From Planctomycetota bacterium (GTDB lineage: Bacteria; Planctomycetota; Planctomycetia; Pirellulales; Lacipirellulaceae): 64,000 nt of DNA. Position numbers and translations under genes: made by a program. Positions 32,558 through 52,695 of this stretch are shown here, piece after piece. How positions within the stretch are numbered: position 1 is the first letter of the stretch; each line of letters begins with the position of its first letter. Below the pieces are notes generated by a model that was not told where the DNA came from, searched no databases, and saw only the letters and a program-made list of their open reading frames with translations. The DNA lies in NCBI GenBank assembly GCA_013286045.1, contig JABDGM010000010.1, positions 1 to 64,000 on the forward strand, read 5' to 3'.

Positions 32558-33345
32558 TTCGTTTTCTCTTTCGCGGCTTCGGCGGCAGGCTTGTTATCGG
32601 CCGCTTTCTCGGCGGAATCTTTTGCGGCGGCCGGTTTGTCTGCCGCATTATTTTCGCCAACCACTTTCTCGTCCGCCGCGTTGTCCTCGGTCGCGTCTTC
32701 GTCGAGGCATTTGAGCAGCAACTTGTGGAAGCGATCGCATTCGCTTTCGCTGGTGCCGTCCACAACCGTGCGAATTTTGCCCTTCTTATCAATCAAGATG
32801 AGATAGTCCTGGTGCCCCTTCAGGCTCAGGAAAATCTTCATGCCCTTCGCGACGCGCTGGGTGTACTCCAAATCGCCGCGGCAGAAAAGCCAGTGCTCCG
32901 GATCGGCGTTCCAACGCTCGGCATATTTTTGCAGGGCTTCGACCGAGTCGTTATCGGGATCGCATGTGATGCTGACCCAGGTGACATCTTTCAGATCAGG
33001 CTGATTGGCCAAAATCTGCACGTTCGCGTTTAATCGCAAACATTGGCCGGGGCACGACGTGTAAAAGTAACTGGCCACCCACACCTTGCCACGCATATCG
33101 GTGGACTTGAATGGCTTGCCGCTACGTTCGGTGAGCTCGAATTCTTTCAGCGGCGGGCCGATAGCGTTCGCGGGGATCGCTTCGCTCTTGGCGATTGCGA
33201 ATTGGTGGACCTGATACCACTTCCAGCCGCCGAAACCCATGGCAATAAGCACCGCGGCGCAAAGCGCGAATGGCAAGGCGGCGCTGTTCACCGCTTGGGA
33301 GGGCGTTGGTTGACGCGAAGTGCCGGGTTGGGCTTGCGAACTCAC
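32554..33345 (-). CDS. SCO1/SenC copper chaperone
   Basis: The GTG at 33345 overlaps the stop of the ABC permease gene (GTGA) and has GGAG 7-8 nt upstream; the product is 263 residues. A membrane anchor at about residues 22-45 is followed by a thioredoxin-fold domain with the copper ligands Cys98 and Cys102 (SCPGQC) and His178 (KGHQDYLILID). The last 50 residues are a low-complexity Ala/Lys/Glu tail. Sco proteins deliver copper to the CuA site of cytochrome oxidase subunit II, encoded in the same operon. Confidence 0.92.
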   Translation of the reverse strand: MSSQAQPGTSRQPTPSQAVNSAALPFALCAAVLIAMGFGGWKWYQVHQFAIAKSEAIPANAIGPPLKEFELTERSGKPFKSTDMRGKVWVASYFYTSCPGQCLRLNANVQILANQPDLKDVTWVSITCDPDNDSVEALQKYAERWNADPEHWLFCRGDLEYTQRVAKGMKIFLSLKGHQDYLILIDKKGKIRTVVDGTSESECDRFHKLLLKCLDEDATEDNAADEKVVGENNAADKPAAAKDSAEKAADNKPAAEAAKEKTN

Positions 33346-34181
33346 AGCAAATCTCCCGTCGATCTCGTTCCTGCGATGGACCACGCCGCGGCGAAGATCA
33401 CGGCAGCAAAAGCCAGCGATACGATCCAGCAAAGCGAGAGCGACGGCAGGCCGACGCCCACGCTTTCATTTTGGAGGCAATGTCGCAGGCCGGCCACCCC
33501 GTAAGTAAGCGGGTTTAGGCGAACGATCCAGCCCAGCCAGCCCCCCACGTCCATCGGGAAAAAGGCGCCGGAGAGTAGCCACATGGGTAGAAGGAAAACG
33601 CTCATGATGGCGTGGAAACCTTGCGTCGAATCCATTCGCCAAGCGATCAGGAAACCTAGCGCGGTAAGCGCGATCGAGATCACGAACATCAGCGCGATTG
33701 CGGCAACCCATTGCAGAGCCGTTGTGGAGGGTGAAATCACCTGAAACCAGCCGAGCTTGCCGGTGATCCAGCCGAGGAACAAGAACACGATTCCTTGCAG
33801 CATGGCGATCGCCGATCCGCCCAATACTTTTCCCATTACGATCGACCATCGCGGAACGGGGGCCACCAACACACCCTGCAAGAAACCTTCGCGGCGATCT
33901 TCGATGATCGAGATCGTGGCGAAGATCGCGGTGAAGAGGAGGATCATCACCAGCGTGCCGGGAAAGAAATGAGAGTAGTCGAGACGGTTCGAGTCAGCGC
34001 CACCGACGCGTGCCGTGCCGAGACCCGCACCAAACAACAGCCAAAAGATGATTGGTTGTACCAGCGCGCCGAACACTCGGTTCTTCTGGCGGAAAAACCG
34101 CACCAGTTCGCGCTGGCTGAGCGTGAAGATCACGGGCCAGGCGGATACGGTCGCGGGTTTATTTACTGAAATGGTAGACAT
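33342..34181 (-). CDS. ABC-2 type transporter permease
   Basis: A 279-residue permease with six transmembrane helices in the ABC-2 arrangement: an N-terminal LSQRELVRFFRQKNRVFGAL region, the IIEDRREGFLQGVLVAPVPR coupling segment after the second helix, and the end with LNPLTYGVAGLRHCL. It overlaps sco by 4 bp and follows its ATPase by 24 bp. It probably exports something required for the oxidase, such as a lipid, haem or a copper ligand (inference from context only). Confidence 0.9.
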   Translation of the reverse strand: MSTISVNKPATVSAWPVIFTLSQRELVRFFRQKNRVFGALVQPIIFWLLFGAGLGTARVGGADSNRLDYSHFFPGTLVMILLFTAIFATISIIEDRREGFLQGVLVAPVPRWSIVMGKVLGGSAIAMLQGIVFLFLGWITGKLGWFQVISPSTTALQWVAAIALMFVISIALTALGFLIAWRMDSTQGFHAIMSVFLLPMWLLSGAFFPMDVGGWLGWIVRLNPLTYGVAGLRHCLQNESVGVGLPSLSLCWIVSLAFAAVIFAAAWSIAGTRSTGDLL

Positions 34182-34205
34182 GGGCGTTCGATTCGGACCA
34201 CAAGT

Positions 34206-35189
34206 TTAGTGGCCAGATTTTTTCTTTCTGCCACGTCCCTTTGGCTGCGTTTCAGGGTCAACTTCATTCCAGAATCGGTGACCAGTGAAGTGAATAAAAA
34301 CATCTTCGAGCGTTGGCTTACCGAGCGTGATCGACTCGGTGCGATCCGGGAACGCTTCGACCAGCCGCGGAATCCATTGATGGCCATTTGGCTGCTCGAG
34401 GCGGACTGAGTTGTCGAGCACCATTGCCGGAATGTTAAACTGCTTTTGAATTTCGGCCGACAGCCCGGCCGGATCCTTGGTACGGATCGTGATCGAGTCT
34501 CCGCCAACAGCCGCCTGCAGGGCATCCGGCCTATCTAGCGCCGCGAGTTGCCCTTTGTGCATAATCGCGATCCGGTCGGCCCGTTCAGCCTCTTCCAGCA
34601 AATGCGTAGTGACGACGACCGTCACGCCGTCGTTATCGCGAACCTGCTCCAGATATTGCCACAAATCGCTACGAGCGCCCGGATCGAGACCCGTCGACGG
34701 CTCGTCCAGTAGCAAAAGCCGCGGACGATGCAACATGCCGGTGGCCAATTCGACGCGCCGCCGCATGCCGCCGGAAAGCTTTTCGACAAGGTCTCGGCTT
34801 CGCTCGGCGAGTCCCAGCCGGCTTAGCATTTCCTCGGCCCGCGTGTGCAGTTCGCGGCCGCCTAAACCATACAGCCGGCCATGGTGAATCACGTTTTCGA
34901 GCACCGTGAGTTTCTTATCTATGCTCGGCGATTGAAAGACCACGCCCAACTGCGCACGAATGGCGCTGGCTTCGCGACGGAGGTCGAGCCCCAGGATGCG
35001 AACTTCTCCCTGCTGAATGGGGATCAGCGTCGAAAGGACGCGAAAGAGTGTTGTCTTGCCGCTGCCATTAGGGCCGAGAATGGCGAAGACTTCGCGCTCG
35101 GCAATGCCCAATGTTAGATCACGAATCGCCTCGTGCTCGCCGTAGCGGTAAGCAAGGTGGGAAATATCGACGGCGGGCGCGCTAGACAT
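34206..35189 (-). CDS. ABC transporter ATP-binding protein of the respiratory operon
   Basis: A 327-residue ATPase: Walker A GPNGSGKTTLF (about residues 39-49), signature LSGGMRRRVELA, Walker B LLLLDEPSTGLDPG and H-loop VVTTHLLEEAERAD. The C-terminal domain ends in a short basic tail (GRGRKKKSGH). It lies 12 bp after coxD and 24 bp before its permease. The two together are an ABC-2 exporter embedded in the oxidase operon. Confidence 0.92.
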   Translation of the reverse strand: MSSAPAVDISHLAYRYGEHEAIRDLTLGIAEREVFAILGPNGSGKTTLFRVLSTLIPIQQGEVRILGLDLRREASAIRAQLGVVFQSPSIDKKLTVLENVIHHGRLYGLGGRELHTRAEEMLSRLGLAERSRDLVEKLSGGMRRRVELATGMLHRPRLLLLDEPSTGLDPGARSDLWQYLEQVRDNDGVTVVVTTHLLEEAERADRIAIMHKGQLAALDRPDALQAAVGGDSITIRTKDPAGLSAEIQKQFNIPAMVLDNSVRLEQPNGHQWIPRLVEAFPDRTESITLGKPTLEDVFIHFTGHRFWNEVDPETQPKGRGRKKKSGH

Positions 35190-35201
35190 ACAGTGCGACG
35201 A

Positions 35202-35657
35202 TCAGTTCGCGCCTTCCCGCTGGAGGTCTTTTTCCGCCGCTTTCAAATCGGACGCTTCGACCTTATGCGGATCGGCTGCATAAACCCAACGCTCCTCGGA
35301 ATACCGCGCATATCCATTGTTTATGCGCCAACCAACATCGGGCACCAACATCAGCCCCAAAAACACGGACATGAACGTGGCCGGAATTGTGAGCACCCAT
35401 TTCCAGTTAGCTTCCCACAACAAGTGCATGAAGAACATGATCACAAGCATGGCCTTCGTGCAGGAAATCGCCATCATCAGCGCGCGGCTTGCCGGCACCG
35501 GCACGTGCGCTCGCCAAAACGGAAAGTACGTGAGGAACGAGCCCGTGGTGAGCAAGCACAACGCCACAAACACGAGCAGGTATTTGCCATTGCCGCCATG
35601 ATGGGCGTGGTCGTGGCTGTCGTGGCCGACTTCGGTATGTTGATCGTGATCAGACAT
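35202..35657 (-). CDS. Cytochrome c oxidase subunit IV-like
   Basis: From the ATG at 35657, 151 residues. A His-rich N-terminus (several His in the first 22 residues) precedes three transmembrane helices (KYLLVFVALCLLTTGSFLTYF, ALMMAISCTKAMLVIMFFMHLLWE, WVLTIPATFMSVFLGLMLVP), as in prokaryotic subunit IV. A charged tail follows. It is 44 bp downstream of coxC and is the smallest oxidase subunit of the operon. Confidence 0.85.
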   Translation of the reverse strand: MSDHDQHTEVGHDSHDHAHHGGNGKYLLVFVALCLLTTGSFLTYFPFWRAHVPVPASRALMMAISCTKAMLVIMFFMHLLWEANWKWVLTIPATFMSVFLGLMLVPDVGWRINNGYARYSEERWVYAADPHKVEASDLKAAEKDLQREGAN

Positions 35658-35701
35658 AATCGTTAACTTCGTGGTCCGATGGGAGCGGCGAAAAAGCCCA
35701 C

Positions 35702-36715
35702 TTAAAACAGGTATAAGAGCGGGAATAGGAATATCCAAACCAGATCAACAAAGTGCCAATATAGCCCAACGTTCTCTACTAACGTGGCGCGGCTCCGGTC
35801 GAGCGTCGTAAACAGCATCAACGCGAAAGCGATCAACCCCACAATCACGTGGATCGCATGGAATCCGGTCAGCAGAAAATAAGTGCTGGCCCACATCGGC
35901 CCGCCCGGAATCATGATCGGCAGCCGCAACCAAGGATTCTTTTCATTGATGCCTTCGCGCTCCTCGCCCTTCCCTTCCGATTTTCCATCGGCCGTTGGTT
36001 GTTCGTAGGCGGCATACTTCACGACGATGGCCGGTGGAATGGCGCCCGCTTCGGCGGCTTGAATGACCGTTCCTTGATCATGCGGCGGATAGATTTCGTA
36101 CGCCAGTTCGGTGAGCTTTATGACGCCTTCCGGCGAATCCGGCTGATTGCGAACCGCGGTTTCCGCCGCGTCAACTTTCTTCATCACCTCGTCGATGACC
36201 AGGATCCGGGCTTTGTCGTCTTCCGTGGCGTTGGGTCCCTTCGCCGTGAGAGGCGTTTTCAAATCATTAAGCCGCTTCCGAACGGCCGCCGAGTAGTAGA
36301 CATCGGCCTTGTCATACACCATGCCGTGCGGCTTCACTGGGTAAATGCCGTGTTCAAATTTGTGCGAGTACTCGTACATCTTCACGCCCAGGAACACGCA
36401 GCCAAGGAGCAGCGTGAGCGTGATGTACCCTTTGGCCTTGCCGGATTGATTCATCTTGGCGGCTTCGAACGCGAGCACAACCGTCACGCTGGAACAAATC
36501 AGCACGAAGGTGTTGAAGGCGCCGAGCGGTTCGCTCAGGAGCACATCGTGCGGCGCAGGCCACGCAACAGCCCCGAACCGAAGCACGATGTACGTGCCTA
36601 TCAGCCCCGCGAAGAACATGATCTCGGTCGAGAGGAACAACCACAGGCACGTCTTCCCATTGGGAATAGGCAGTGCCGGCTGATACGATAATCTTGGACC
36701 GTGTGAGTCGCTCAT
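35702..36715 (-). CDS. coxC: Cytochrome c oxidase subunit III
   Basis: From the ATG at 36715, 337 residues. The first helix segment ([20 protein letters not shown]) and the last helices ([37 protein letters not shown]) are diagnostic of subunit III. Compared with the usual length near 200, a hydrophilic insertion of about 130 residues sits between the third helix and the GFHAIH helix, rich in Lys, Glu and Pro. The fold around it is intact, so it is an added loop, not damage. Confidence 0.92.
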
Positions 36716-36746
36716 ATTTAAATCGATAAATCGGAAGTTTGCGTAA

Positions 36747-37670
36747 TTATACGGCAACCATTAACAGTAGCCCCATCCAGCAAACCAAATACAATAAGCT
36801 GGCTCGCAACAACCGGCGGGCCGAAAAATCATCGCGTCGGAATAAAAACAGGACCGAAGCCGCGAGCTGCATAACGCCGAGCATCAAGGTCCAAAAGACG
36901 TAGATCGTGGGGCTGCCGGCCCAAGGCGTCATCGCCGGCACGAGGCTAACAGGGATCAAGGCCAGGGCGCCGATAACCGCTTGTGCCCCTGCCCGCAAAC
37001 CAGTGGGTTCGACGACCGTCAGCATGCGGTGGCCCGCCCGAACGTATTCGCCGCGGTACAACCACGCGATCGCCATAAAATGTGGGAACTGCCACAGGAA
37101 CATCACGCCGACGAGAGCAAGCGCTCGCATATCGATCGCAGCGCCGGTGGCCGTCCAACCAATAAGAATCGGCGACGCCCCGCTCACAGCGCCCACCGTA
37201 GTGTTCAACGGTGACCGCGTCTTTAGCGGCGTGTAGGCCAGAACATAAATCAACCAGGTTGCAAGAGCGACGCCGGCTGTCGTTAGGCCGACGGTAAACG
37301 CAAGCTCGGGCAGCCCGATGGCGAGCGTTATCACGCCGAACCAAATCACTTGTCGCGAGGTGAGGCGACCCGCCGGCAGTGGGCGAGTCGCCGTTCGTGT
37401 CATGAGTGCGTCGGTCGATTGCTCCCACCATTGATTGAACGCCCCCGCGCTGGCAGCGACCAATGCCGCTCCCATCACCGCGTTCAACAATACTACTGCA
37501 GCAATGCCGGACGGAGCAGCAAGGTGCGCCGCGACGACGATCGTGACCAGCTCGAGCATCACGATCCGCGGCTTTGTGAGCTCGACGTAATCGCGGACGC
37601 GGGCCGCCCAACTCGCGCGATCGCGAGTGGAGGCGAGCGAAACCCCGGCAGTGCTGGTAAGGCGACTCAT
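36747..37670 (-). CDS. ctaB: Protohaem IX farnesyltransferase (haem O synthase)
   Basis: A 307-residue UbiA-type prenyltransferase with about eight transmembrane helices. The first Asp-rich motif is visible as [15 protein letters not shown] followed by RPLPAG, and [11 protein letters not shown] near the N-terminus is typical of CtaB/CyoE. It adds a farnesyl group to haem B to make haem O, the precursor used by CtaA, whose gene overlaps it by 4 bp. It supplies the haem A route for the oxidase of this operon. Confidence 0.92.
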
Positions 37671-38680
37671 ATGGCGGCCCCCAATTCGCGTCGGACGACG
37701 AGCGGAAGTGGAGATTCAATGAGCAGTCGTTGGGCGTACAGCGCTAGCGCGACGGCGGCCCCTAATATCAGTGAGCCGACGGCGACGTGTGCCGTGACAA
37801 TGTGCGTTTGCGTCCAACCGCCTTGAATCACCGCGACACTCTGGGGTGAAATCCAATGACTGGCCCACGTGGGCACGGCGAATTTCACGATCCAAGTGCT
37901 CGCGCCGAGCACGATCTGCAAAACGACCAATCCCACCAGGGCCAGCGAAAGATTGCGCAATCGGGGAACTTGCCGGGCACGCGTCTGAATGATCCAAGCC
38001 ACACCGATGATGTGCAGCGTGAGAATGGCCGCCAAGAACAAGTGAAACCGCACAGCCAACATGAACGTATCAGGCTGGGCATCGACCGGAACGTGACGGA
38101 CGACCGCGCCCAGAACGAGTTGTAAGTAGGCCAGCACTGCGACAACCAGCGTCAGCCGTCGGATGATCCCAGCGCCATCGGTCGGCGATGAATCTGTTGC
38201 GCGGAGCCAACTGCGCGAAGTGAAAACAGCCATCGCGACGGTGACCGCGAAGAATGCGGGACCGGTGCAGCCATGCAACATCGCGAGCGTTCGCTCGTCG
38301 AGCAACACGCGCATACCACCCAGCACACCTTGAAGGATGACCAGTGCCAGCGCGGCGAAACCGATTCCCTTCATCCAGCGACGATTTTCATTCCGCAGAA
38401 TGAGCACGAGCAAACCGATCGTCAGCATGCCGACGGTGGAGGCCAAAAGCCGATGACCGTGTTCGATGAACAAATCCCAAGGCCCAAGCAGCCAGGTTTG
38501 CCACGGATACAAGAACAAATTGTAGCCGTAGGTATTCGGCCAATCGGGAACCGCCATGCCCGCGTCGGTAGTCGTCACCAAACCGCCGATCCAAAGTAGC
38601 GGAAACGTTGCGCACGCCAGCACCACGGCCCAGCGGTGGGTCCAGGTGGAGTAGCCAGCGAGTGGTTCCGAGGCAGGCAT
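37667..38680 (-). CDS. ctaA: Haem A synthase (COX15/CtaA)
   Basis: A 337-residue membrane protein with about eight helices and the conserved His positions of the CtaA/COX15 family: LWIGGLVTTTDAGMAVPDWP, EHGHRLLASTVGMLTIG, MLHGCTGPAFFAV, AVRFHLFLAAILTLHIIGV and VTAHVAVGSLILG. It oxidises haem O to haem A. It starts 4 bp beyond coxA and overlaps ctaB, an arrangement that ties haem A supply to oxidase synthesis. Confidence 0.92.
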   Translation of the reverse strand: MPASEPLAGYSTWTHRWAVVLACATFPLLWIGGLVTTTDAGMAVPDWPNTYGYNLFLYPWQTWLLGPWDLFIEHGHRLLASTVGMLTIGLLVLILRNENRRWMKGIGFAALALVILQGVLGGMRVLLDERTLAMLHGCTGPAFFAVTVAMAVFTSRSWLRATDSSPTDGAGIIRRLTLVVAVLAYLQLVLGAVVRHVPVDAQPDTFMLAVRFHLFLAAILTLHIIGVAWIIQTRARQVPRLRNLSLALVGLVVLQIVLGASTWIVKFAVPTWASHWISPQSVAVIQGGWTQTHIVTAHVAVGSLILGAAVALALYAQRLLIESPLPLVVRRELGAAI

Positions 38681-38684
38681 GCGG

Positions 38685-40457
<1,773 letters not shown>

Positions 40458-40517: not shown

Positions 40518-41321
40518 TTACGGGGTGGCTTGGGTGATGCGATGCGCCTGTTGCTCGGCAGATTTTTTCGCGAGCCAGGCGTTGAATTCGCTGCGCGGTT
40601 CAAACGTCGCCCGGCCACTCATCTTGTAGTGCCCCCAGCCGCACAACTCGGCACACACAATATCCACTTCCGCTTTCGATTCGCGGCATTTAAACCACAT
40701 ATACTGCTGCATACCGGGCACCACGTCTTGCTTCATCCGAATGTTGGGCAGGAAGAAGCTATGGAGCACATCAGCCGCCTTGATGCTCAGCAATATTTCT
40801 TCACCCGCGGGGAAATGAATCTCACCATCGACCAGAATGATGTCGTCTGGCGTGTGCAGAATTCCATCGGGCCCCGGGTAGCGCACATCCCAATTGAACT
40901 GGCGGCCCGTGATCTCGGCCGTCACCGGGATATCCGGCTTCCGCATTTTGGCATCCGCCCACGCATTCATCTGATAAATGGCGATGAACAGCAGCGTGAC
41001 GGCTGGCAAAATCGTCCACACGACTTCCAGCGTGTGGCTGCCGTGCGAATACTTCACCGGCTCGCGATTCGTTCGGCCGTTGTACTTCCACATGAAGTAG
41101 AACAGCGCGCCTTCCGTAGCGACAAACAGGACGCCGGTCAGGTAGAGAATGAAATAAAATAGCTGGTCGATAACGCGGCCGTTCTCCGAAATATCGCGCG
41201 GGAACGAATGGTTGTAGTACGGCGCAAGCACAAATGTCAGGACGCCGAAAATCGGCACCAACAAAAACAGCAATGCCCAGAAGTGCTTCACGACAATCGA
41301 TCTCCCACTTGCAGGATTCAA
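40518..41321 (-). CDS. coxB: Cytochrome c oxidase subunit II
   Basis: A 267-residue subunit II. Two N-terminal transmembrane helices (LLFLVPIFGVLTFVLAP, LYLTGVLFVATEGALFYFMW) precede a cupredoxin domain with the CuA site: His near 188 (DVLHSFF), then Cys223, Glu225, Cys227, His231 and Met234 in a CAELCGWGHYKM segment. No cytochrome c domain is fused, so electrons must arrive from separate carriers. It opens the oxidase part of the operon. Confidence 0.96.
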   Translation of the reverse strand: MNPASGRSIVVKHFWALLFLLVPIFGVLTFVLAPYYNHSFPRDISENGRVIDQLFYFILYLTGVLFVATEGALFYFMWKYNGRTNREPVKYSHGSHTLEVVWTILPAVTLLFIAIYQMNAWADAKMRKPDIPVTAEITGRQFNWDVRYPGPDGILHTPDDIILVDGEIHFPAGEEILLSIKAADVLHSFFLPNIRMKQDVVPGMQQYMWFKCRESKAEVDIVCAELCGWGHYKMSGRATFEPRSEFNAWLAKKSAEQQAHRITQATP

Positions 41322-41366: not shown

Positions 41367-42680
41367 CTATTCGCCCGTACTTACCTCAGACGCGTTGATT
41401 GGCCGCTTTTGCGGCAAGCTCGCGGGTTCGAACGGTAACGAATGAACGTAATCTACAATCTGCCAAATTTCTTTTTGAGTTAGCGTGCCTTGGGCGCCCT
41501 CGCCGGCAGGACCGCTCGCCGGCATCGGCGTGCCGGGGATGCCCGACGAAATACGCCAGAAAACGTCGATCGGGCGCCGACCGCCGCGAAATACGCCTTC
41601 GCGCAAATTTCGAGGAATCGCGTTGCGCGGCAGCAGTAAGCTGCTGAGCAGCGCGTGACGCTCGTTGAATTCCTTCTGAGCATCAACAATCTGTTGCCGA
41701 ATTTGAGTTGCGTCATCCCCCTGCGCTTTAGCCAAATCAGTCTTGAGTGAGGCGATCTGCCCGATCTTATCGTCCGTCGCTTTGAAGAAGTCGTTGATCG
41801 CTTTGTTCCAAACGTCGTAATCGTCTTGCTGTCCGTCGCCCAGCGCGGTCGGACCATGGCACTTCACGCAGTTGGCGCGAGTGCCGTAGAAGAGCTCACG
41901 GCCGGCTTTCACAGAGGCCTCGAGCTCTTTCGCCGGTCGGTTATCCGGCGGAATCGAGGCGTCCTCCGGATTGATAACCTGCTCCTTCGCGCCGTTCCAT
42001 GATTCCATGATCGGGCCAAGCATATCTTGCATTACTAGTTTTTGAACTGCCGGATCATTGGCGGGGTCAAACTTGTCGCCCGCGTTCAACTCGACGGATG
42101 CATGATCCTCAAGGAGCCGTTCCATTTGTCCGCGAATGCTGAGGTACTTCACATATTCCACCAGTGCGGCAACTTCATCCGGCGGCAACAATGCGAACGA
42201 CGGCATCGCCGTGCCCGGGATCCCTTCGTGCAACGTTTTCGTCAAATCGAGGTTGGTCGGCTCTGCAGCGGTGTAGGTGCTTTTGAACTTAAAGACGCCC
42301 ATTCGATAATCGCGAGGATACGGGTTGAGCACCGCCGCCGTCGGCCCGCGGCCGTCGCCCGAAATGCCGTGGCAATGCACGCAATGGCGACGATATAGAC
42401 CATGCTTCGCCCCAACCTTGTCGCTCCACACTGGCCCGGCGGCCATATCTAACTTTTTCTGATCGAGCCCAGTCTCTTTAAGTGCGATTGGCTCGTCTGG
42501 CGTGCCGAACATCGCGCCGAGAATATTCGCAATTGCCTGCTGATGCTCCGGCGCGATTTGTTTCGCAACCACGTTCGTCATGTTCAACCGGAACGGCGGC
42601 GGATCGCTCTTCCCACAACCGACCAATGCCGCAGTAGCGGTGACAAGTGCCAAGGCTCGCATTGAATATCTATCGTTCAT
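41367..42680 (-). CDS. Dihaem c-type cytochrome lipoprotein
   Basis: From the ATG at 42680 (GTG at 42695 lies inside the repeat and is less likely) the product is 437 residues. Lipobox ALVG before a Cys near residue 21 suggests a membrane anchor. Two haem-binding sites are visible: CVHCH about a quarter along and CVKCH in the middle. Between and after them lie typical cytochrome c segments (GIPGTAMPSFALLPPDEVAALVEY, ASGIPGTPMP-like). The gene lies between the cupredoxin-like genes and coxB, so it is the likely electron donor to CuA (inference). Confidence 0.9.
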   Translation of the reverse strand: MNDRYSMRALALVTATAALVGCGKSDPPPFRLNMTNVVAKQIAPEHQQAIANILGAMFGTPDEPIALKETGLDQKKLDMAAGPVWSDKVGAKHGLYRRHCVHCHGISGDGRGPTAAVLNPYPRDYRMGVFKFKSTYTAAEPTNLDLTKTLHEGIPGTAMPSFALLPPDEVAALVEYVKYLSIRGQMERLLEDHASVELNAGDKFDPANDPAVQKLVMQDMLGPIMESWNGAKEQVINPEDASIPPDNRPAKELEASVKAGRELFYGTRANCVKCHGPTALGDGQQDDYDVWNKAINDFFKATDDKIGQIASLKTDLAKAQGDDATQIRQQIVDAQKEFNERHALLSSLLLPRNAIPRNLREGVFRGGRRPIDVFWRISSGIPGTPMPASGPAGEGAQGTLTQKEIWQIVDYVHSLPFEPASLPQKRPINASEVSTGE

Positions 42681-42686
42681 CGATTG

Positions 42687-42784
42687 GTTAACCACTGAGG
42701 CACGGAGTTCACGGAGACCCGATTGGATATTCCACGAACTTTATTCCAGCCCAATAACTCGGTGACCTCGGTGTTCTCTGTGGC
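42687..42784. repeat. Dispersed palindromic repeat
   Basis: The left arm GTTAACCACTGAGGCACGGAG (continuing TTCACGGAGA) and the right arm with AACTCGGTGACCTCGGTG and TTCTCTGTGGC are imperfect inverted copies of each other, about 40 bp apart. The same arms occur at 59979-60130. It fills the gap between the dihaem cytochrome gene and the cupredoxin-like gene, and overlaps the former's upstream region. Confidence 0.7.
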
Positions 42785-42801: not shown

Positions 42802-43704
42802 TTACAGCCGGAACGCCTTCGCTGGCACTACGACTTTTAGTTCTTTCACATCATCCGGCTTGAGCGTGACCGCGACGCGGCCACGGTTCGACCACTTTAC
42901 ATCCGGTGCATCCGGCGTCGTGCCCACCAGGCCGTTGCCCGGAGCTGCGCCGCTCTCATGCCATACCTGAAATTCGAGCGGCTCGCCGGCCGGCACGTTG
43001 GCGATCTCGAATTTGCCGTCAGCATCGCTGACCGCAAAGTACCCATCCTTGCGCGGCAGCATGTAAGCCGTCATCCAAGGGTGGATGCTACACGTGACTT
43101 TGTTCGGCACCTGGGCATCCTTCTGCACCTTGTAAGGAATGGCGCCGCCGGCCGGAATCAATTGATTAAATCCCGATCCGAGAATGTTCGTGTTGTGACC
43201 AGTGTTATCGCTGTTCTTGATATCGAGCGCCTGCCCAACCGTGAGCCCCACGACGTGCGTGAGAAACAAGCAATGCTTTTGATCGAACTCGACCCGGTCG
43301 GTCTTCGGCTTGGCTGAATCATTTACCCGCGATGCATCGCGAAGAAACACCACGACATTCTTGATGGCCTTCGAACCCGGCGTGACAACCAACATTTCTT
43401 GCGGTGGGGCTTGGCCATTGATAGTGCAAATCTCCGCTTCTTTTGTCACGTTGTACGGCGGCATCGTGGGCGGATCGCCATCGAATACAAACTGCCCTTT
43501 GATTGTGGCCCAACCCGTGCCCGTCGCGGCAGCCGCTTGTTCGCTACCGGCGCCTTTCGACGTGGCCAGCACATCGCGAATGGCTTTGACGTTCGCCGCA
43601 TCCGCAACCGGCCCCATGTCCGCGCGACCGCTGCAACCGGAGAGCCCAGACAGCGACACCGCCAACATCCACAAAAAGCCACTAATCCCGAAAAGTCTTT
43701 TCAT
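42802..43704 (-). CDS. Cupredoxin-like lipoprotein
   Basis: From the ATG at 43704, 300 residues. Signal peptide with lipobox ending at Cys24 (LSG before CSG). The domain has features of a type-1 copper protein with a carboxypeptidase-regulatory-like end: an SDNTGHNTN motif, a CSIHPWM segment with Cys, His and Met in cupredoxin order, then a KFEIANVPAGEPLEFQVWHE stretch. It parallels the neighbour at 43755-44525 and was probably duplicated from it. It may carry electrons to the oxidase or bind copper, but copper binding is only inferred. Confidence 0.75.
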   Translation of the reverse strand: MKRLFGISGFLWMLAVSLSGLSGCSGRADMGPVADAANVKAIRDVLATSKGAGSEQAAAATGTGWATIKGQFVFDGDPPTMPPYNVTKEAEICTINGQAPPQEMLVVTPGSKAIKNVVVFLRDASRVNDSAKPKTDRVEFDQKHCLFLTHVVGLTVGQALDIKNSDNTGHNTNILGSGFNQLIPAGGAIPYKVQKDAQVPNKVTCSIHPWMTAYMLPRKDGYFAVSDADGKFEIANVPAGEPLEFQVWHESGAAPGNGLVGTTPDAPDVKWSNRGRVAVTLKPDDVKELKVVVPAKAFRL

Positions 43705-43754
43705 CTTATTTGTCAATCGCCAACGATACTCCATTCGCCCGAAACTCGCGGCGG

Positions 43755-44638: not shown

Positions 44639-47600
44639 TCATTGCTGAGCCGACGCGTTATTCGGCGGTGAAGCCTCTGCCGACTTACCGGCCGGTGCCG
44701 CTTGATGGCCCCCAGCGGGCTCCTTCACCATTCCCTTCACCGAAGTCTTGCGACGCGTGTACTCGTCAAAGTTCATCAGCAAATCGACCACGCCTTCCAA
44801 CTGTGCAGTACTCGGCCCCGGGAACAACGCTTGGTTCACACCGCCGAAGTTCGCGGCCGACGCATCGTACGGAATGTTCACCGGCATGCCCGTGTACGGC
44901 AGGATGCGCTGCGGATTCGCAACCCAGCGGTGCACATACTCCGGCCGCAGCCGGCGATACACCTGATCCAAATTCGGCCCCGCGGTCTTCGTCGCACCCT
45001 TTACCTGATAATCGCCCACCGAATGGCACTTCACGCAGTAGTTGCCGTCGGTCACGATCTTCATCGCGTCGTTCAGCATCTCGGGATGTCCCTGTTCGAT
45101 ACCGGACAAATAGCTGGTGCGATGCCGGCTGTTGTACTCGTACGGAAACTCGGAGTTGCCTTTGGCCGCAAAGTAGTCGACAAGCTTGCTCGCTTCGTCG
45201 CTCGTCATGTGGAAGTTCGGCATCCGCAGCACGACCGCGGGACGAATCTGAGTTGGGTCCATCAAGAAGTCGTGCAGCCAAGGGGTCTGCACCTTCTCAC
45301 CTTCATTGTGCAGCGGCGGCGGCAGCCAACCCCACGCTTCCGTCGCGACGACGTTCGGATTGTTCTTCTTCTCATCCGCGATCACATGCGGATAGAGGTA
45401 TTTAGCTAGGTCGCCGCCCAACGTTGGGTACGCATGTCCCCGCAGCGGAGCTTTGCCATCCATCGTGGCGGGAATCTTCAAATTCTGCAGGCCGACCTTG
45501 CGAACCTCGCCATTGAGGACCGCCGGTTGGAACGGAGTGAACTCGAAGAACCGCGGTGAATCCTTATCATCCGGCTCAATGGCCACGCCATCTGCATCCA
45601 CGAGCCGCGGCTGACCGGTCGCTTCGTCGCGCGCCGGCATACCGTGAATTTCGCTACGCAGCAGGCCACGCTTATCCGTTCTTACCGACGCCTCGATTTG
45701 CTCCGGCTTAACGTCCGGTCGCAGGAACGGATAGTCGCTCGTGGTCGGCGGCGATTCGAACTGCTTCGGAGAGAACGCAACGTCCCACCGCTCCATATCC
45801 AGAATGTGGCAGCCGGCGCAGTTGTACTTCTCGAGCACATGCCGACCTTCGACAATCGCCTTCTGTCGCGGTTGCGGCTGATAGACGTACCTGGCTGCCG
45901 GCGTTTCGCTGGTCAGCCCAAGCACGAATGTCATCACTGCCTCGCGCTCCGTCGCATCGAACGGGAACTTCGGCATGCGGAGCCGCTCGTCGTAACGCTT
46001 CGTGCGAGTGGTTTCGTAGTCGAAGCTTCGCGGCATACGGAGCTTTTGCCACAAGAAACCGTTCCGCTCGTGACTGCTCAGTGATTGCAGGAAGTAACCT
46101 GTGTCGCCATCGATCTTATCGTCCAGCGGATTCAGCCCACGCTGCTCAACGTGCTCACCGCCCGGATTCGCAGAGAGTGTCGCGCCCTTGCCTGCCGCGG
46201 TATTCGCATGATGCGCGGCCTCATGCATGGCCACTGCGCCGGCGTCCGTCCCGTTGCCCATATCGCGCTTGGGTACGAACTCGCCGTGTGCGGACAAGAA
46301 TTCGTCGATATTTTCAAATGCTAATTGCGAAGTATCCTTGCGACCCCAATTCGCGAGCGGCGTACCGATCGGCTTCTGGCCTTCGTAACCCGGAATATCG
46401 TGGCAGCCGAAGCAGCCATATCGGCCGATCGAGCGACGGCCAACATACTCGAGCTGGCGCTGCGCCAGTTCGTTCGGATTGTTCTTGAAATCGCCAATCA
46501 GGATCTTCTCGTCCACTTTGACCGAGGATGCGAGGTCGGCGGGAATGCCCTCTTTTGCAAACCGCTCCGCCCGCAGGCGCGGGAACGAGGCCGACAACCA
46601 CACGGTGGTCAGATCGGTGAGCGCAGCTTTTTCATCCGGCGAAAGCGCCGTCGACTGAGCGTCGACCGCCGGCTTCCAATCGGTGGGAACGCTCAACAGG
46701 TAGGCCATCACATCGGCGGCCGGATCGGTTACTTTGCCGGTCGGCGTGCCCGTCGGATCCTTCTCGGCGATCGGATCGAGGAACAAATTTGGCATCGCCG
46801 TCCGCGGATAGTAATGATTCGGCGCCTTGACCCAGCTGTAGAGCCACTTGCGGCCCTTATCCGTGTTGAGCTTCGCCGCCAGGCGCGACAAATCGGGGCC
46901 TTGAGTCGAATGAATGCCTGGGAAATCCTTGTGCGAGTGGCACGCAAGGCACCCGCGCGTTTCGAACAGCTGTTTACCCCGTTCGGGCGACGGGGATTCG
47001 GTAATCCCCTGCGGCGGGCCGATGTACTCGAACGGCTGGCTGCTTGTTAGCAGCAAATTGGCGAGCGCGCGAACTTCGATTTGCTCGAATCGCTGAGTGT
47101 AGTCGAGATCGGAGACGTCCTGCTCCTTGCCCTCCGTGTCATGAATCTTGAAGTTTTTATTCTCTTTGTCGAGATGCTCGTAGTTCAAGAAGAATTGTGG
47201 CATCCGCGTCGTCGGCCGGAAATCCGACGGCTTACGAATCCAGTTCACAACCCACGAGTAGTCGACCTTCGACGATAAGTGCCGCAAGCTCGGCCCAACT
47301 TTTCGGAATGGGCCCGGCGTGTCGTTGTCTTTTAGCCCGTCTGCCAAGGCGTGCGTCGCCGGAGTAAGCCGTGGCTTAGCCGCCGGCTGTTTGCCGTCGC
47401 CGCCGGCATTTTTCTCGGCGTCAGCGTCGGCACTGATGGATCGCAGCAATTCGGTGCGGGCCTCGGTCGAATCGATTCGCTCACTCAGCTTCGTGGCCGC
47501 TTCACGCTCCGCGGGATTTAACCCCGGATCGCTCAGAATTTGGGCTGCCACTTCGGTGTAGTTTGGCTCAAGCCGCAGATCGGGTCCGACGCGCTTCGTA

Positions 47601-49279
47601 GGCCCATCGAAGCCCGCGATTTCGTGGCATCCATAGCAACCGTACAGCCGAATGGTTTCGTAACCTTTCACCAACTTGGGCGCCGGCGGCTCGGGAAACC
47701 GCTCACTCGGCTCCAGATCAACCACATCGTGATGGCATTTCAGACAGTTGCTCTCGATGAACCGCTCCGGGGTCATCGGGAAAATCCAATGATGGTTATC
47801 GAACCAACCGTACTTGCGCGACCAATCGAGCGCTTGCTGCGGGTCATCCGGCGTGTGCGATGCCCACTTGAAGTCAGTCGCACTCCCCTGCCCGTCGTGG
47901 CAAATCGTGCAACCAACGTCCCCTTTTTTATGCGGGCTCGTGCTGCCGACGAACAAATCCAACCGCGGGTGCGACGTAAACGGCTGATCCAAACCGCGGC
48001 GAATCTTGACTGACTGCGGCTTACCCCACTCGGCGATATCGAGCAGATAATGATAAGCATCGTCTTGCGACGTGATCGGACCACCGTTCACTTCTTGCAG
48101 GATGTCGCCCATCTGCAGCCCGGCCATCGCCCCGAGGCTGTTCGGAGAAACGACTTGAACCGTCACCGCGCTCGCCTCAACTTGCCCGCGCGGAGCGAGC
48201 GTAATTCCGTAGATCGTCGCGAGCGCGTCGGCTCGGCTGTCGCTCGAAAGCTCTTTCGGCGTTTCAGCCGGCGTCGTCAACTGCACGGTCCGCTCACGAT
48301 CCATCCGCGGAATCGCCGGGTAGGCTGGGTCCGTTGCCGACCCGGGCGCCGACTTATCAATCGCCCGGTGGCACACGATGCAGCGGTCATACCGAGCGAC
48401 CGAGCTGAAGTTGTAATTGATCTTCATATCCGGCAACCAAATCTGGTCGAGCTTGATATTGCCGGTATAGAGCGCGTCCAGCACGGGACCGCGGTTCACC
48501 CACTCGCCCGCCGAATTCGAATACTTGCCCAGGTTCTCGCGTAAGCGGGTTTGCTCGGTCTGCAACGCCCCGATTTGTTTCTGCAAATCCGTTTCAACGG
48601 CTTGGATTTGCTTCACAATTCCTTCTAAGCTCAGGCGATAATCCTTCGCCAAGTTAACAGCCGCATCGAGCTGGGCGATTTCGTCCTTGAGATTTTCGAT
48701 TTTCGCATCGATTTCCGCCGTTGGCTTCCCTTCGCCGACCGCGATGCCTCGTGTGCTCACTGCCGCTGTCTGATCCGCCGCCCGGAACTTCTTCTTGGTG
48801 AGCAGCGCGCCTTCACGCCGTCTGGCTTCGCGCACAAACACGCTCATTTGATCGAGCACGTCCTGCCGAGCATCGAGTGCGGCTGGCGAGCCGTTCTCGA
48901 CCTTCTCAAGATCCGTGGCCGCGTTATCAAGCTTCGTAAAGTTCGCCGCTGCCTCGGCCCCCTTTAACCGCGCGTCCTCAGCCGTAACCTTGGCCTTGAA
49001 ATCATCGATGAGCGCTTTGTCAACTTTCGTGCTCCGCGAGGCAATCAAATCTTTTTGCAGACGATCGAGCGCAACGGTCGAATCGGCCTTCGCCTGGGCT
49101 AGCTGCGCTTGGATCGTCCAGCTCTCGCGGGCCCGATCATCCAACTGCCATTTTATCCATTCGCGATTGTGATCCTTGGACAGCATCCAGATCGTGCCGG
49201 CCAGCATCACCAGCGCGGAGATGCCGAACACCACGTGCATCATCGCCTGATCGCGCCAAGTTTTTTCAGTTGCGGGCAT
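44639..49279 (-). CDS. Giant octahaem c-type cytochrome with PDZ domain
   Basis: A 1546-residue protein, the largest in the window. Residues about 12-33 form one transmembrane helix. Residues about 45-260 are predicted helical and coiled-coil. Eight haem c sites are visible at about 300 (CIVCH), 456 (CTICH), 511 (CLKCH), 547 (CYGCH), 777 (CLACH), 956 (CFGCH), 1154 (CAGCH) and 1415 (CVKCH). Between sites 1 and 2, residues about 370-435 read as a PDZ domain (NSLGAMAGLQMGDILQEVNG). The end is Ala/Pro-rich and disordered-looking. It follows the cytochrome b genes by 64 bp, so it probably replaces cytochrome c1 and the soluble cytochrome in a Rieske/b complex. It is not recognisably part of alternative complex III. 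Confidence 0.9.
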   Translation of the reverse strand: MPATEKTWRDQAMMHVVFGISALVMLAGTIWMLSKDHNREWIKWQLDDRARESWTIQAQLAQAKADSTVALDRLQKDLIASRSTKVDKALIDDFKAKVTAEDARLKGAEAAANFTKLDNAATDLEKVENGSPAALDARQDVLDQMSVFVREARRREGALLTKKKFRAADQTAAVSTRGIAVGEGKPTAEIDAKIENLKDEIAQLDAAVNLAKDYRLSLEGIVKQIQAVETDLQKQIGALQTEQTRLRENLGKYSNSAGEWVNRGPVLDALYTGNIKLDQIWLPDMKINYNFSSVARYDRCIVCHRAIDKSAPGSATDPAYPAIPRMDRERTVQLTTPAETPKELSSDSRADALATIYGITLAPRGQVEASAVTVQVVSPNSLGAMAGLQMGDILQEVNGGPITSQDDAYHYLLDIAEWGKPQSVKIRRGLDQPFTSHPRLDLFVGSTSPHKKGDVGCTICHDGQGSATDFKWASHTPDDPQQALDWSRKYGWFDNHHWIFPMTPERFIESNCLKCHHDVVDLEPSERFPEPPAPKLVKGYETIRLYGCYGCHEIAGFDGPTKRVGPDLRLEPNYTEVAAQILSDPGLNPAEREAATKLSERIDSTEARTELLRSISADADAEKNAGGDGKQPAAKPRLTPATHALADGLKDNDTPGPFRKVGPSLRHLSSKVDYSWVVNWIRKPSDFRPTTRMPQFFLNYEHLDKENKNFKIHDTEGKEQDVSDLDYTQRFEQIEVRALANLLLTSSQPFEYIGPPQGITESPSPERGKQLFETRGCLACHSHKDFPGIHSTQGPDLSRLAAKLNTDKGRKWLYSWVKAPNHYYPRTAMPNLFLDPIAEKDPTGTPTGKVTDPAADVMAYLLSVPTDWKPAVDAQSTALSPDEKAALTDLTTVWLSASFPRLRAERFAKEGIPADLASSVKVDEKILIGDFKNNPNELAQRQLEYVGRRSIGRYGCFGCHDIPGYEGQKPIGTPLANWGRKDTSQLAFENIDEFLSAHGEFVPKRDMGNGTDAGAVAMHEAAHHANTAAGKGATLSANPGGEHVEQRGLNPLDDKIDGDTGYFLQSLSSHERNGFLWQKLRMPRSFDYETTRTKRYDERLRMPKFPFDATEREAVMTFVLGLTSETPAARYVYQPQPRQKAIVEGRHVLEKYNCAGCHILDMERWDVAFSPKQFESPPTTSDYPFLRPDVKPEQIEASVRTDKRGLLRSEIHGMPARDEATGQPRLVDADGVAIEPDDKDSPRFFEFTPFQPAVLNGEVRKVGLQNLKIPATMDGKAPLRGHAYPTLGGDLAKYLYPHVIADEKKNNPNVVATEAWGWLPPPLHNEGEKVQTPWLHDFLMDPTQIRPAVVLRMPNFHMTSDEASKLVDYFAAKGNSEFPYEYNSRHRTSYLSGIEQGHPEMLNDAMKIVTDGNYCVKCHSVGDYQVKGATKTAGPNLDQVYRRLRPEYVHRWVANPQRILPYTGMPVNIPYDASAANFGGVNQALFPGPSTAQLEGVVDLLMNFDEYTRRKTSVKGMVKEPAGGHQAAPAGKSAEASPPNNASAQQ

Positions 49280-49343: not shown

Positions 49344-50762
49344 TTAAAAATTTAAAAAATACTCTGGGATCGCAATCAAATACTTCAGGTTAAAGCTCCA
49401 GCGTAAAACCATCTTGATCGGCAGCGCCGCCATGAACAGCAGCAGGTTCGCGAGCACCATGTAACGGATGAATCCCATCCGCTGGTAGAAATTGCGAAAC
49501 ACCGTGATCGCCCCCAGCGGCGGCAAAATGATGAAGTAGCTGAGCACAAGCAGCGTGCCCACCACCTCGCGCGTGAACAGGATGCTGACGAACTGTGCGA
49601 CCGGCTGGAACCAACCGGAAATCCACGTCGGCAGATATTCGGGAATCCACTGCAGCTGCGGCACCATCGGCAAGCTACGGCCCAGGCCGCGCTGCCAGAA
49701 GTATTCTGACAGGTTGATGTTGTTAAGCGCTTCGACCTTGTGTGCGTCCCAGTGTTCGTAAGGCCCGAAGAAATTCCAGTTCGGACCGCGCAGCAGCGTC
49801 CCCAGAACAATAAGTGTCACCCAGAGTTCTAAGAACCCTAACTGAAAAACTATGTACGCGAACTTGCGCTGCTTGATTGTGTAGTAGCCGTTGCCCTGCT
49901 TGTTGAAGTCGATGTACGGAATCGCCATCAAACCCACGATGATCAGGCTCGGGAGTACCACGCCCGCCATCCAGGGATCGTAGTACACGAGCATTTCCTG
50001 CAGCCCGAGGAAGTACCACGGCGCCTTCGAGGGATTCGGCGTCTTCACGCTGCTCGCCGGTTCTTCGAGCGGAGCTTGCAGCCACATCGCCCAGAAGATG
50101 AGGACCGCCGTCAGGGCGATCATGCAGATCATTTCGGTGTAAACTAAGTCCGGCCACACCAGGATTTTCTCGTCGTCGAGCTTCTCGAGCGGCGGCTCGC
50201 CCGCTTCCATCCGCTTGTCGTTCTGCACGGCTTTCCACGTCGCCAACCACGTAAAAAACGCCAGCAAGAACACGAGCGCCACGATCGGCACGTTATCCGG
50301 CTTCGCCACAATTGCGAAAAAGTTCGGATCGGGCATCGAAAGTCCCAGGAACAACAGCATCAAATTCCAAATCGACCACGCCACCGCCGGCTTCACGAAC
50401 CACGAGCGAAACAAAAACAGAATGACGAGCACTGTTGTTGTGCCGAGCGTGTAGATAACCGGCCCTGTCTGCGAATTGACAAATTCGCGGAACGACTCGG
50501 GCATCTTCGGCATCATGCTCAGGTTGGCCCCAGCCGCCATCGCCGAAAGCACTGCAAACCCGAGAGCGACGATCGTCCAAACAAGCGCGTTCGTAACCGG
50601 AAAACTGAAGCCGGGCGTTCGTAACCGGAAATAGGTGACCGGCCCAAACTTTCGCCACATGAGTAGCGCCGCAATTCCGTTCATCGCCGCTAGCGCGATG
50701 TAAAACGGCACCAAGAACGCGGAAACCGATTCGGCAAACTGTTGGGGTGAGATTCCGTGCAT
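49344..50762 (-). CDS. Cytochrome b C-terminal part (subunit IV-like), with extra helices
   Basis: A 472-residue protein with about ten transmembrane helices. The segment NPSKAPWYFLGLQEML (about 242-257) matches the quinol-oxidation (Qo) region of subunit IV or the cytochrome b C-terminal domain. The usual PEWY is APWY (Ala247, Trp249, Tyr250). Helices before it (about 15-175) and after it exceed a normal subunit IV of 160 residues. Together with the b6-type protein it forms a split cytochrome b. The gene sits between the b6-like and octahaem genes. Confidence 0.88.
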   Translation of the reverse strand: MHGISPQQFAESVSAFLVPFYIALAAMNGIAALLMWRKFGPVTYFRLRTPGFSFPVTNALVWTIVALGFAVLSAMAAGANLSMMPKMPESFREFVNSQTGPVIYTLGTTTVLVILFLFRSWFVKPAVAWSIWNLMLLFLGLSMPDPNFFAIVAKPDNVPIVALVFLLAFFTWLATWKAVQNDKRMEAGEPPLEKLDDEKILVWPDLVYTEMICMIALTAVLIFWAMWLQAPLEEPASSVKTPNPSKAPWYFLGLQEMLVYYDPWMAGVVLPSLIIVGLMAIPYIDFNKQGNGYYTIKQRKFAYIVFQLGFLELWVTLIVLGTLLRGPNWNFFGPYEHWDAHKVEALNNINLSEYFWQRGLGRSLPMVPQLQWIPEYLPTWISGWFQPVAQFVSILFTREVVGTLLVLSYFIILPPLGAITVFRNFYQRMGFIRYMVLANLLLFMAALPIKMVLRWSFNLKYLIAIPEYFLNF

Positions 50763-50836: not shown

Positions 50837-51610
50837 TTACAGCGGTCCGCTGATGCCGCCATCCTTGCGAACGCGCCAAAAGTGAATCGCCAGTAGCAAC
50901 GAAACTGCAAGCGGGATCGCAATGCAGTGCAAAATATAAAATCGATTCAGCGTTTCTTCACCCACGTTGCGCGCACCGAGTAGCGCAAAGCGCGCATCGC
51001 TCCCACTGGTGATCATGGGATACCCCAACGTAAGCAATTGATGCCCCGGCCCTTCATGCCCAAGGATCGGAGTAGCGCGGGCCATATTCGAACCGACCGT
51101 GATAGCCCACACCGCCAACTGGTCCCACGGCAACAAATAGCCCGTGAACGAGAGCAGCAATGTGAGCAGTAGCAGAATAACGCCGACGACCCAGTTGAAT
51201 TCGCGTGGCGGTTTGTAGCTGCCTGTGAGGAACACGCGGTACATGTGCAGCCAAACGGTGATCACCATCGCATGTGCTCCCCACCGATGGATTTCGCGCA
51301 TGATGCCGAGCGAGTAAATATCGCGCAGGGCCAAAATATCGTTGTACGCCCACTCCAACGTCGGGCGGTAATAGAACATGAGCAGAACGCCCGTCACCGT
51401 CTCCACCAAAAACAGGAAGAACGTGACGCCACCCATGCACCAGGTGTAAGACAGCGCAATGCCCTGCTTCTTGATCGAAACCGGATGGAGGTGCAGGAAG
51501 AAGTTCGTCAGCATCACCACGATGCGATTGCGACGATCGACCGGCATCGGGTGCCGAAAGATACTTTTCCAAATCTGCGATTCGGTGATGATTTCGCCTA
51601 AACCGGCCAT
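50837..51610 (-). CDS. Cytochrome b6-type haem b protein
   Basis: From the ATG at 51610 (AGGA just upstream) 257 residues with four core helices. The four haem b ligands are His108 and His122 in the second helix ([15 protein letters not shown]) and His228 and His243 in the fourth ([16 protein letters not shown]). The second pair is spaced 14 residues apart, as in b6 rather than mitochondrial cytochrome b. Cys58 in a SYTWCMGG segment occupies the place of b6 Cys35, which covalently binds an extra haem. [11 protein letters not shown] also matches b6. It is a menaquinol- or plastoquinol-type b, here presumably menaquinol (inference). Confidence 0.93.
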
Positions 51611-51663
51611 GGCTTCCTGAATGTGCTGTTGTTTCTCGAAATTCTTTCGATACCCGCCTGGAA

Positions 51664-52695
51664 TTACACCGGAATGTAGCAACCCGGGTTGTCCCAGTCA
51701 CCCATTTCCTGCTGGAACGTGCGGCTTTTGTCAACTTCGATCGAACCGTCGCTGCCGATCGAAATCGCATATCGCTCGAGCGGCCGCGGTGCGGGACCTT
51801 CGAAATTAATGCCGTCCTTGTAGTAACCGCTACCGTGGCATGGGCATTTGAACTTCTGCTCCGCATCCAACCAGTTCGGCGTGCAACCCAAGTGAGTGCA
51901 GACCGATTTGAGCGCAAAGATTTCTTGCTGCCCGTTGTATTCCGTATTCACGATCCAAACGCCGAACTGCGCCTTATACCGCTCTTCAACTTGACCAGGC
52001 GGAAACTTATCGGGCGTGCCCACGCTGAACTTGCTCGGCGGCTCACGTAGAATATTCGGGAACATGAACCGCACGGTGCCGAGCGTCCAAGCCGCGGCCG
52101 TTGCGGTTAGTGCTGTGAATCCGACCGCCAAAGCCGACATGCCGAATATGAACGCACGCCGCTCGGCAACTGCCGCGTCCTTCGCAGCCTTTAGTGCACC
52201 CGGCTTTGCATAGCCCGGTCGCACCGGCATCGGCGGCACAACGATCGCTTCTTTCGCCTTCGCCTTCTTCGCGTCTGGCGCGGCAGGCGATGCCTTAGCG
52301 GCCGCTTCGGCCTTAGTCATCGGCCCAGGTTTCGCCGTCGTTCGCGCGGCAGCCAGAATGCTCTGTGTGTCGACCGGCTCGCTTTTGGCAGCGACCGCTT
52401 CTTTCTTCGCAGGCGCCGCTTTCGCAGCCGCCGGCTTGGCGGCCGGCTTCTCTTTTGGCGCAGCAGGAGCAGCGGCCTTCTCGCCGCGCGCCATCGCCAT
52501 CATATCGGCAACGCTCGGTCGAGCCCCGCCCACAGCAGCAGCAGGTTTCTTCGGAGCTGGAGCCGCGGGCTTCGGCGCGGCAGCCGACTCTTCCGCAGGC
52601 GCATCCGCTTTGGGCTCTTCGGCAGCACCGCCTTTTGCATCGGCCTTGCGTGCAGCCGCCAACATTTCTGCGACTGTTAGTTTTTTGTCAGCCAT
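51664..52695 (-). CDS. Rieske iron-sulphur protein with long N-terminal extension
   Basis: A 343-residue protein. Cluster ligands are Cys266-His268 (CTHLGC) and Cys284-His287 (CPCHGSG), and the disulphide Cys are present. A transmembrane helix lies at about residues 180-205. Before it come about 165 residues rich in Ala, Lys and Pro. Three short copies of a motif like [11 protein letters not shown] are spaced through this extension. The gene starts with GAGG upstream of the ATG at 52695 and leads the operon's known subunits. It transfers electrons from quinol to haem c. Confidence 0.92.

Follow-up and report, generated by a model that had tools for sequence, protein, structure and literature searches.

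A PDZ-bearing octahaem cytochrome as the probable c1/f-position subunit of a b6f-like complex in Planctomycetota

The window, i.e. the whole stretch of 64,000 nucleotides analysed here, carries on its (-) strand a cluster of genes centred on a large c-type cytochrome. Its upstream neighbours, encoded on the same strand, are a Rieske protein, a b6-like cytochrome b and a subunit-IV-like protein, and downstream the genes run from two cupredoxins to those of a caa3-type oxidase:

51664..52695, (-) strand: Rieske [2Fe-2S] protein (Pfam PF00355; motif CTHLGC..CPCHGSG; C-terminus ...CYIPV)
50837..51682, (-) strand: b6-like cytochrome b, with invariant Cys82 (haem c_n type) and His64
49344..50762, (-) strand: subunit-IV-like (Cytochrom_B_C) membrane protein (Pfam), with the C-terminal tail PEYFLNF
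44639..49279, (-) strand: octahaem c-type cytochrome in the c1/f position; intact open reading frame of 1546 aa
43755..44525, (-) strand: cupredoxin-like protein A, with a C..H..M copper-type motif
42802..43734, (-) strand: cupredoxin-like protein B, a paralogue of A, also with C..H..M
41367..42695, (-) strand: dihaem cytochrome c (family search)
40518..41321, (-) strand: CoxB, oxidase subunit II, with the CuA motif CAELCGWGHYKM
38685..40457, (-) strand: CoxA, oxidase subunit I (family search)
32554..38680, (-) strand: the remaining oxidase cluster, namely CtaA, UbiA/CtaB, CoxC, an ABC transporter pair and SCO1

All 19 long loci examined in relatives show the order Rieske-cytbN-cytbC-octahaem, and this order recurs in nearly every sufficiently long locus of a contig scan of the collection, of which the best 80 loci were considered, all carrying the planctomycete operon. 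Matching cytochrome b (86-98% identical) and octahaem proteins occur in the same genomes. The C..H..M motif is present in nearly all of 79 related cupredoxin-like frames, and the tandem cupredoxin-like proteins may take over from cytochrome c as mobile electron carriers. PADLOC returned no match. As for the individual frames, the true start of the b6-like cytochrome b is probably an internal ATG near 51610, and the Rieske protein has an Ala/Pro/Lys-rich N-terminal extension of ~170 residues, presumably cytoplasmic; its open frames measure 347-477 aa in most Pirellulales versus 168 aa in the anammox homologue of locus L187.

The octahaem protein itself can be divided into a membrane anchor, a region of long helices, eight haem sites and a PDZ domain lodged between the first two haems:

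49184..49249, (-) strand: N-terminal transmembrane anchor, aa 11-32 (hydropathy; helix in AF2)
48521..49162, (-) strand: long-helix region, aa 40-253 (~210 residues; AF2)
48368..48382, (-) strand: haem 1, CIVCH, aa 300-304 (motif)
47987..48316, (-) strand: PDZ domain, aa 322-431, inserted between haems 1 and 2 (Pfam, AF2, PDB match)
47897..47911, (-) strand: haem 2, CTICH, aa 457-461 (motif)
47732..47746, (-) strand: haem 3, CLKCH, aa 512-516 (motif)
47624..47638, (-) strand: haem 4, CYGCH, aa 548-552 (motif); candidate distal Met693, by conservation
46937..46951, (-) strand: haem 5, CLACH, aa 777-781 (motif); candidate distal Met829
46400..46414, (-) strand: haem 6, CFGCH, aa 956-960 (motif); candidate distal Met1102
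45806..45820, (-) strand: haem 7, CAGCH, aa 1154-1158 (motif); candidate distal Met1353
45023..45037, (-) strand: haem 8, CVKCH, aa 1415-1419 (motif); candidate distal Met1465; SoxX-like module

The first-pass annotation had described a membrane anchor and eight CxxCH sites, and both are borne out. A single hydrophobic segment is found at ~aa 10-35, and the anchor would be oriented N-in/C-out, given that the haems are periplasmic. The CxxCH motifs, starting at aa 300, 457, 512, 548, 777, 956, 1154 and 1415, take up 16 of 16 cysteines, so that no other cysteine is left in the chain, and 200 shuffles of the protein gave a mean CxxCH number of 0. Outside these motifs, H437, H450 and H475 are invariant in 51 homologues across the phylum, and M693, M829, M1102, M1353 and M1465 are invariant in 48, again phylum-wide: in other words, three His and five Met, one candidate distal ligand per haem. 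This pattern predicts bis-His coordination for haems 1-3 and His/Met coordination for haems 4-8, and with a candidate ligand for every haem the protein seems made to conduct electrons, as a wire would, and not to catalyse a reaction.

How widespread is this architecture? With a threshold of E<=1e-20, a profile search picked up octahaem matches in 148 of the 392 Planctomycetota genomes searched, and every complete homologue examined (53 across the phylum) has eight CxxCH motifs; the MPATE-type start of the protein is common to nearly all of its Pirellulales relatives. Dozens of independent genomes share the architecture, and all the features of the window protein return in its relatives, which rules out chance or an assembly artefact. 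Planctomycetales-like members (f18) have the same operon and an octahaem protein with long helices and no PDZ domain, and their haem 1-haem 2 spacing is 55-67 aa versus about 150-220 in the PDZ type. Two homologues from other classes, L177 (1866 aa) and L190 (1810 aa), are unusually long, and no Rieske or cytochrome b match was seen within the stretch fetched around them. Five metagenome-assembled genomes titled 'Candidatus Kuenenia stuttgartiensis' (L068, L071, L087, L099 and L103) carry a Pirellulales PDZ-type operon with oxidase genes, and these titles look wrong.

Five genomes whose octahaem protein is ~950 aa long also encode hydrazine synthase (PF18582), for which reason we regard them as anammox bacteria; their protein is an eight-haem, long-helix homologue of that in the window. 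In one of these hydrazine-synthase-positive genomes (L187), the genes stand in the order Rieske, b6-like cytochrome b, NAD(P) oxidoreductase, subunit IV and octahaem. A complex with this layout is described for Kuenenia stuttgartiensis, Kustd1480-1485, in which a cytochrome c with six or eight haems substitutes for cytochrome f (PMC12954380, which cites Kartal et al. 2013 for the complex). The link between L187 and Kustd1480-1485 rests on the cluster layout, on the hydrazine-synthase marker and on the cytochrome b residues named in PMC12954380 (His62, Arg266, Lys267), which are found at the same numbers in L187.

The window shares with Kustd1480-1485 a b6-like cytochrome b, a subunit-IV-like protein and an octahaem protein with an N-terminal helix followed by long helices, and its cytochrome b His64 is the equivalent of Kustd1481 His62, proposed for an interface haem. 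However, the window operon has no NAD(P) oxidoreductase gene (none lies between cytbN and cytbC), it has caa3 oxidase and cupredoxin genes instead, its octahaem subunit is 1546 rather than about 950 aa long, and the PDZ domain is found only in the window type. Since the oxidoreductase is missing from the cluster, the gene content places the window complex as a variant of the Planctomycetota octahaem Rieske/cytochrome b complex, outside the anammox subtype.

This comparison also bears on the long helices. The first-pass annotation had seen here a coiled coil of 200 residues; the helical character of the region stands, its continuity does not. AF2 (residues 1-749, 51 aligned sequences, neither haems nor partners in the model, mean pLDDT 88.6) gives helices at 11-37, 40-82, 88-104, 115-126, 132-182 and 188-253, with short turns or loops between them that rule out one unbroken coiled coil, and a clear 3.5-residue (heptad-like) period occurs in helix 188-253 only. 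In the light of the model, the region is more aptly described as several long helices, which would be able to fold back on each other. In the AlphaFold3 model of the Kuenenia complex (PMC12954380), the long helices wrap round the complex and the Rieske protein; by analogy, this wrapping offers the best available account of those in the window protein, and it speaks against the earlier proposal of a mere spacer or of an oligomerisation device. For the C-terminal part (536-1546), AF2 likewise predicts a confident fold (pLDDT 86.9, again with no haems in the model). Its sequence profile resembles those of SoxX, cbb3 subunit II and further cytochrome c modules. The resemblance in fold is weak: when the C-terminal half was compared by Foldseek, all matches to cytochromes c of the SoxX or cbb3-subunit-II type stayed above E 0.001.

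The PDZ domain, another feature of the first-pass annotation, holds up well. Pfam PDZ_6 falls just under its cut-off when the whole protein is scanned (E=1e-5) and above it when the haem 1-haem 2 segment is scanned alone (7.8e-7). Structure prediction, in turn, gives a PDZ fold: most 10-residue blocks of the domain have a pLDDT of 84-98 in AF2, and solved PDZ domains match the model of residues 327-434 with a best Z of 11.8 (rmsd 2.3, 89 residues aligned). In the AF2 model, the loop between beta1 and beta2 is extended and includes helices. Y357, G358 and L412, invariant in the 21 closest homologues, are expected to lie in the carboxylate loop and the peptide groove. The matches of the domain in Pfam, NCBIfam and PDB sequences are largely bacterial PDZ domains of the HtrA/DegP/RseP type. 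Weak Pfam matches to magnetochrome (MCR) appear in 13 of 24 homologue segments, with none listed for that of the window.

With regard to its distribution, PDZ_6 is found in all 24 Pirellulales-type haem 1-haem 2 segments scanned and in 0 of 30 segments from other lineages plus L191. A tree of the haem part groups the PDZ carriers in a single clade that includes the f17 lineage, and this is most simply read as a single insertion into the haem 1-haem 2 loop in the Pirellulales lineage. One of the two f17 members (L191) is also devoid of PDZ, and both are long branches. This fast-evolving Pirellulales lineage (L142 and L191) has no long helices, its haem 1 lies at aa 108-126, and its cupredoxin-like genes are without the C..H..M motif.

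Which type of complex, then, does the octahaem protein serve? Its position in the operon, in all 19 long loci, supports the earlier suggestion that it replaces cytochrome c1, i.e. that it stands where cytochrome c1/f would be. Cytochrome c1 (PF02167) had no match in the organism's own genome, which is 59% complete, while a control genome matched, and the cytochrome f family is absent among the operon proteins scanned. The "bc complex" of the first-pass annotation needs to be revised, however. In place of a one-piece eight-helix cytochrome b, the operon has a cytochrome b split into two genes, and its Cys82 and His64 are invariant in 47 of 47 homologues, Cys82 being, as we take it, equivalent to the b6 Cys for haem c_n. 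The split and this invariant cysteine assign the complex, at the level of sequence, to the b6f type rather than the bc1 type. With cytochrome b6f it shares the division into b6 and subunit IV, the haem c_n Cys and the Rieske protein; it differs in having an octahaem subunit instead of cytochrome f and in a larger subunit IV. With cytochrome bc1 and the bcc-aa3 supercomplex it has in common quinol oxidation coupled through c-type haems to an oxidase, but not cytochrome c1 or an undivided cytochrome b.

Alternative complex III likewise oxidises quinol with a multihaem c subunit; its core is molybdopterin-family and NrfD-like and unrelated to the octahaem complex. TIGR04519, which we take to mark alternative complex III, is present in 12 of 13 genomes without the octahaem protein versus 6 of 27 with it (40 genomes, i.e. 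the organism's own and 39 relatives; Fisher p=3.5e-5, not corrected for kinship). This suggests that the two complexes functionally replace each other. The organism's own genome also has the marker (G000, contig C16, 34996-35118) and may run two quinol-oxidising complexes, perhaps with different jobs.

Taken as a whole, and leaving aside any clamping role of the PDZ domain, the reading that we favour, at a probability of roughly 80%, is that the octahaem protein is the c-type (c1/f-position) subunit of a Planctomycetota b6f-like complex coupled to a caa3-type oxidase. The N-terminal helix would anchor it beside cytochrome b, and its long helices, if they follow the published anammox model, would embrace the complex together with its Rieske protein. 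The bis-His trihaem group (haems 1-3) would take the high-potential electron from the Rieske cluster, the electron would then pass along the five His/Met haems, presumably in the order 4 to 8, and from there it could proceed by way of the cupredoxins and the dihaem cytochrome c to the CuA centre of the operon's own oxidase. The supercomplex, the haem potentials, the electron path and its order are all proposed on this basis.

Large multihaem cytochromes often serve extracellular electron transfer, and the protein might be such a conduit that merely shares the operon, the more so as the cytochrome b resembles ExtP, below the cut-off of that model. This is very unlikely: no porin or outer-membrane partner is seen among the operon proteins scanned, the octahaem gene is fixed beside those for Rieske and cytochrome b, followed by the cupredoxins and the oxidase, and five His/Met haems suit a high-potential chain. 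Even less is to be expected of a multihaem enzyme of the HAO/ONR/nitrite-reductase kind. Eight haems would fit such an enzyme, and another Kuenenia complex does carry an additional HAO-like octahaem protein; but the window protein matched no such family, all its sites are CxxCH, and the open distal haem site that marks the octahaem enzymes HAO and ONR is not apparent by sequence, the eight invariant candidates for eight haems speaking against a catalytic haem.

Another intriguing question is what the PDZ domain does within this b6f-like complex. The first-pass annotation proposed to look for its ligands among the C-termini of the operon proteins, and this yielded one lead. The subunit-IV-like protein ends in Phe (...NF) in 77 of 84 PDZ carriers versus 0 of 24 non-carriers, PDZ status of the collection-scan loci in this count being set by clade and haem 1-2 spacing. 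The correlation is a lead only, not a demonstration: it reflects about one evolutionary event, since the PDZ carriers form a single clade; the collection-scan loci were assigned by clade and spacing rather than by Pfam; and the early-branching L046 and f17 are exceptions whose tails end in Ile/Leu. The tail is also hydrophobic where PDZ is absent. The helix count, read by analogy with b6f topology and with the five helices that PMC12954380 gives, would put this C-terminus on the positive (p) side. The Rieske C-terminus, in turn, is rejected as a specific ligand, for the ending ...F(I/V/L)xV also occurs in PDZ-less relatives, including the anammox ones. The best candidate ligand is the subunit-IV-like ...PEYFLNF.

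From this comes a guess, more probably wrong than right: the PDZ domain may be a positive-side docking clamp on a partner's hydrophobic C-terminal tail, for which ...PEYFLNF is the candidate. By clasping the subunit-IV-like (or Rieske) tail, it might, with the same modest odds, set the entry haems relative to the Rieske cluster or lock the complex to the oxidase; if true, no earlier quinol:cytochrome complex held or gated by a PDZ domain is known within the literature searched. Assembly or structural roles are about as likely. The domain could serve assembly or quality control, by recruiting a chaperone or HtrA-type protease or by sensing subunits not yet assembled, instead of acting as a permanent clamp; its HtrA/DegP/RseP-type relatives are consistent with this, and a domain most simply gained once and absent in L191 is one that the core does not need. 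Such a role is nonetheless doubtful, for every other Pirellulales homologue scanned retains the PDZ, with Y357, G358 and L412 invariant, and its place in the haem 1-2 loop is one where a module that comes and goes could endanger the redox core. An equally tentative view makes it a structural filler or a dimer contact with an unused groove. PDZ and c-type haem are known together in MamP and MamE, PDZ contacts make the MamP dimer (PMC3971196), and the helices in the long beta1-beta2 loop could block the groove; a filler, however, should drift, and the expected groove residues are invariant in the closest homologues. The MamP/MamE resemblance extends to a His before haem 2, as in the magnetochrome motif, but those proteins have small single-haem domains, a magnetosome function and no Rieske/cytochrome b partner.

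How new is all this? The first-pass annotation knew of no such combination, which is true in part: anammox bacteria, Kuenenia among them (PMC12954380), were already known to have an octahaem subunit with long helices, and the new part, within the open-licence literature, is the PDZ domain as an addition of the Pirellulales lineage. That literature yielded no description of a PDZ domain in a Rieske/cytochrome b or bc complex, or of a Pirellula bc1 complex with its Rieske protein.

Collectively, these data suggest that the quinol-oxidising complex of many planctomycetes is a b6f-like enzyme with an eight-haem wire, one that apparently alternates with alternative complex III. They extend an architecture so far discussed for anammox bacteria to aerobic, culturable relatives, and Adhaeretor mobilis carries the complex. 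Finally, the PDZ-bearing and PDZ-lacking versions of one and the same complex amount to a natural experiment on the role of a PDZ domain in a respiratory enzyme.
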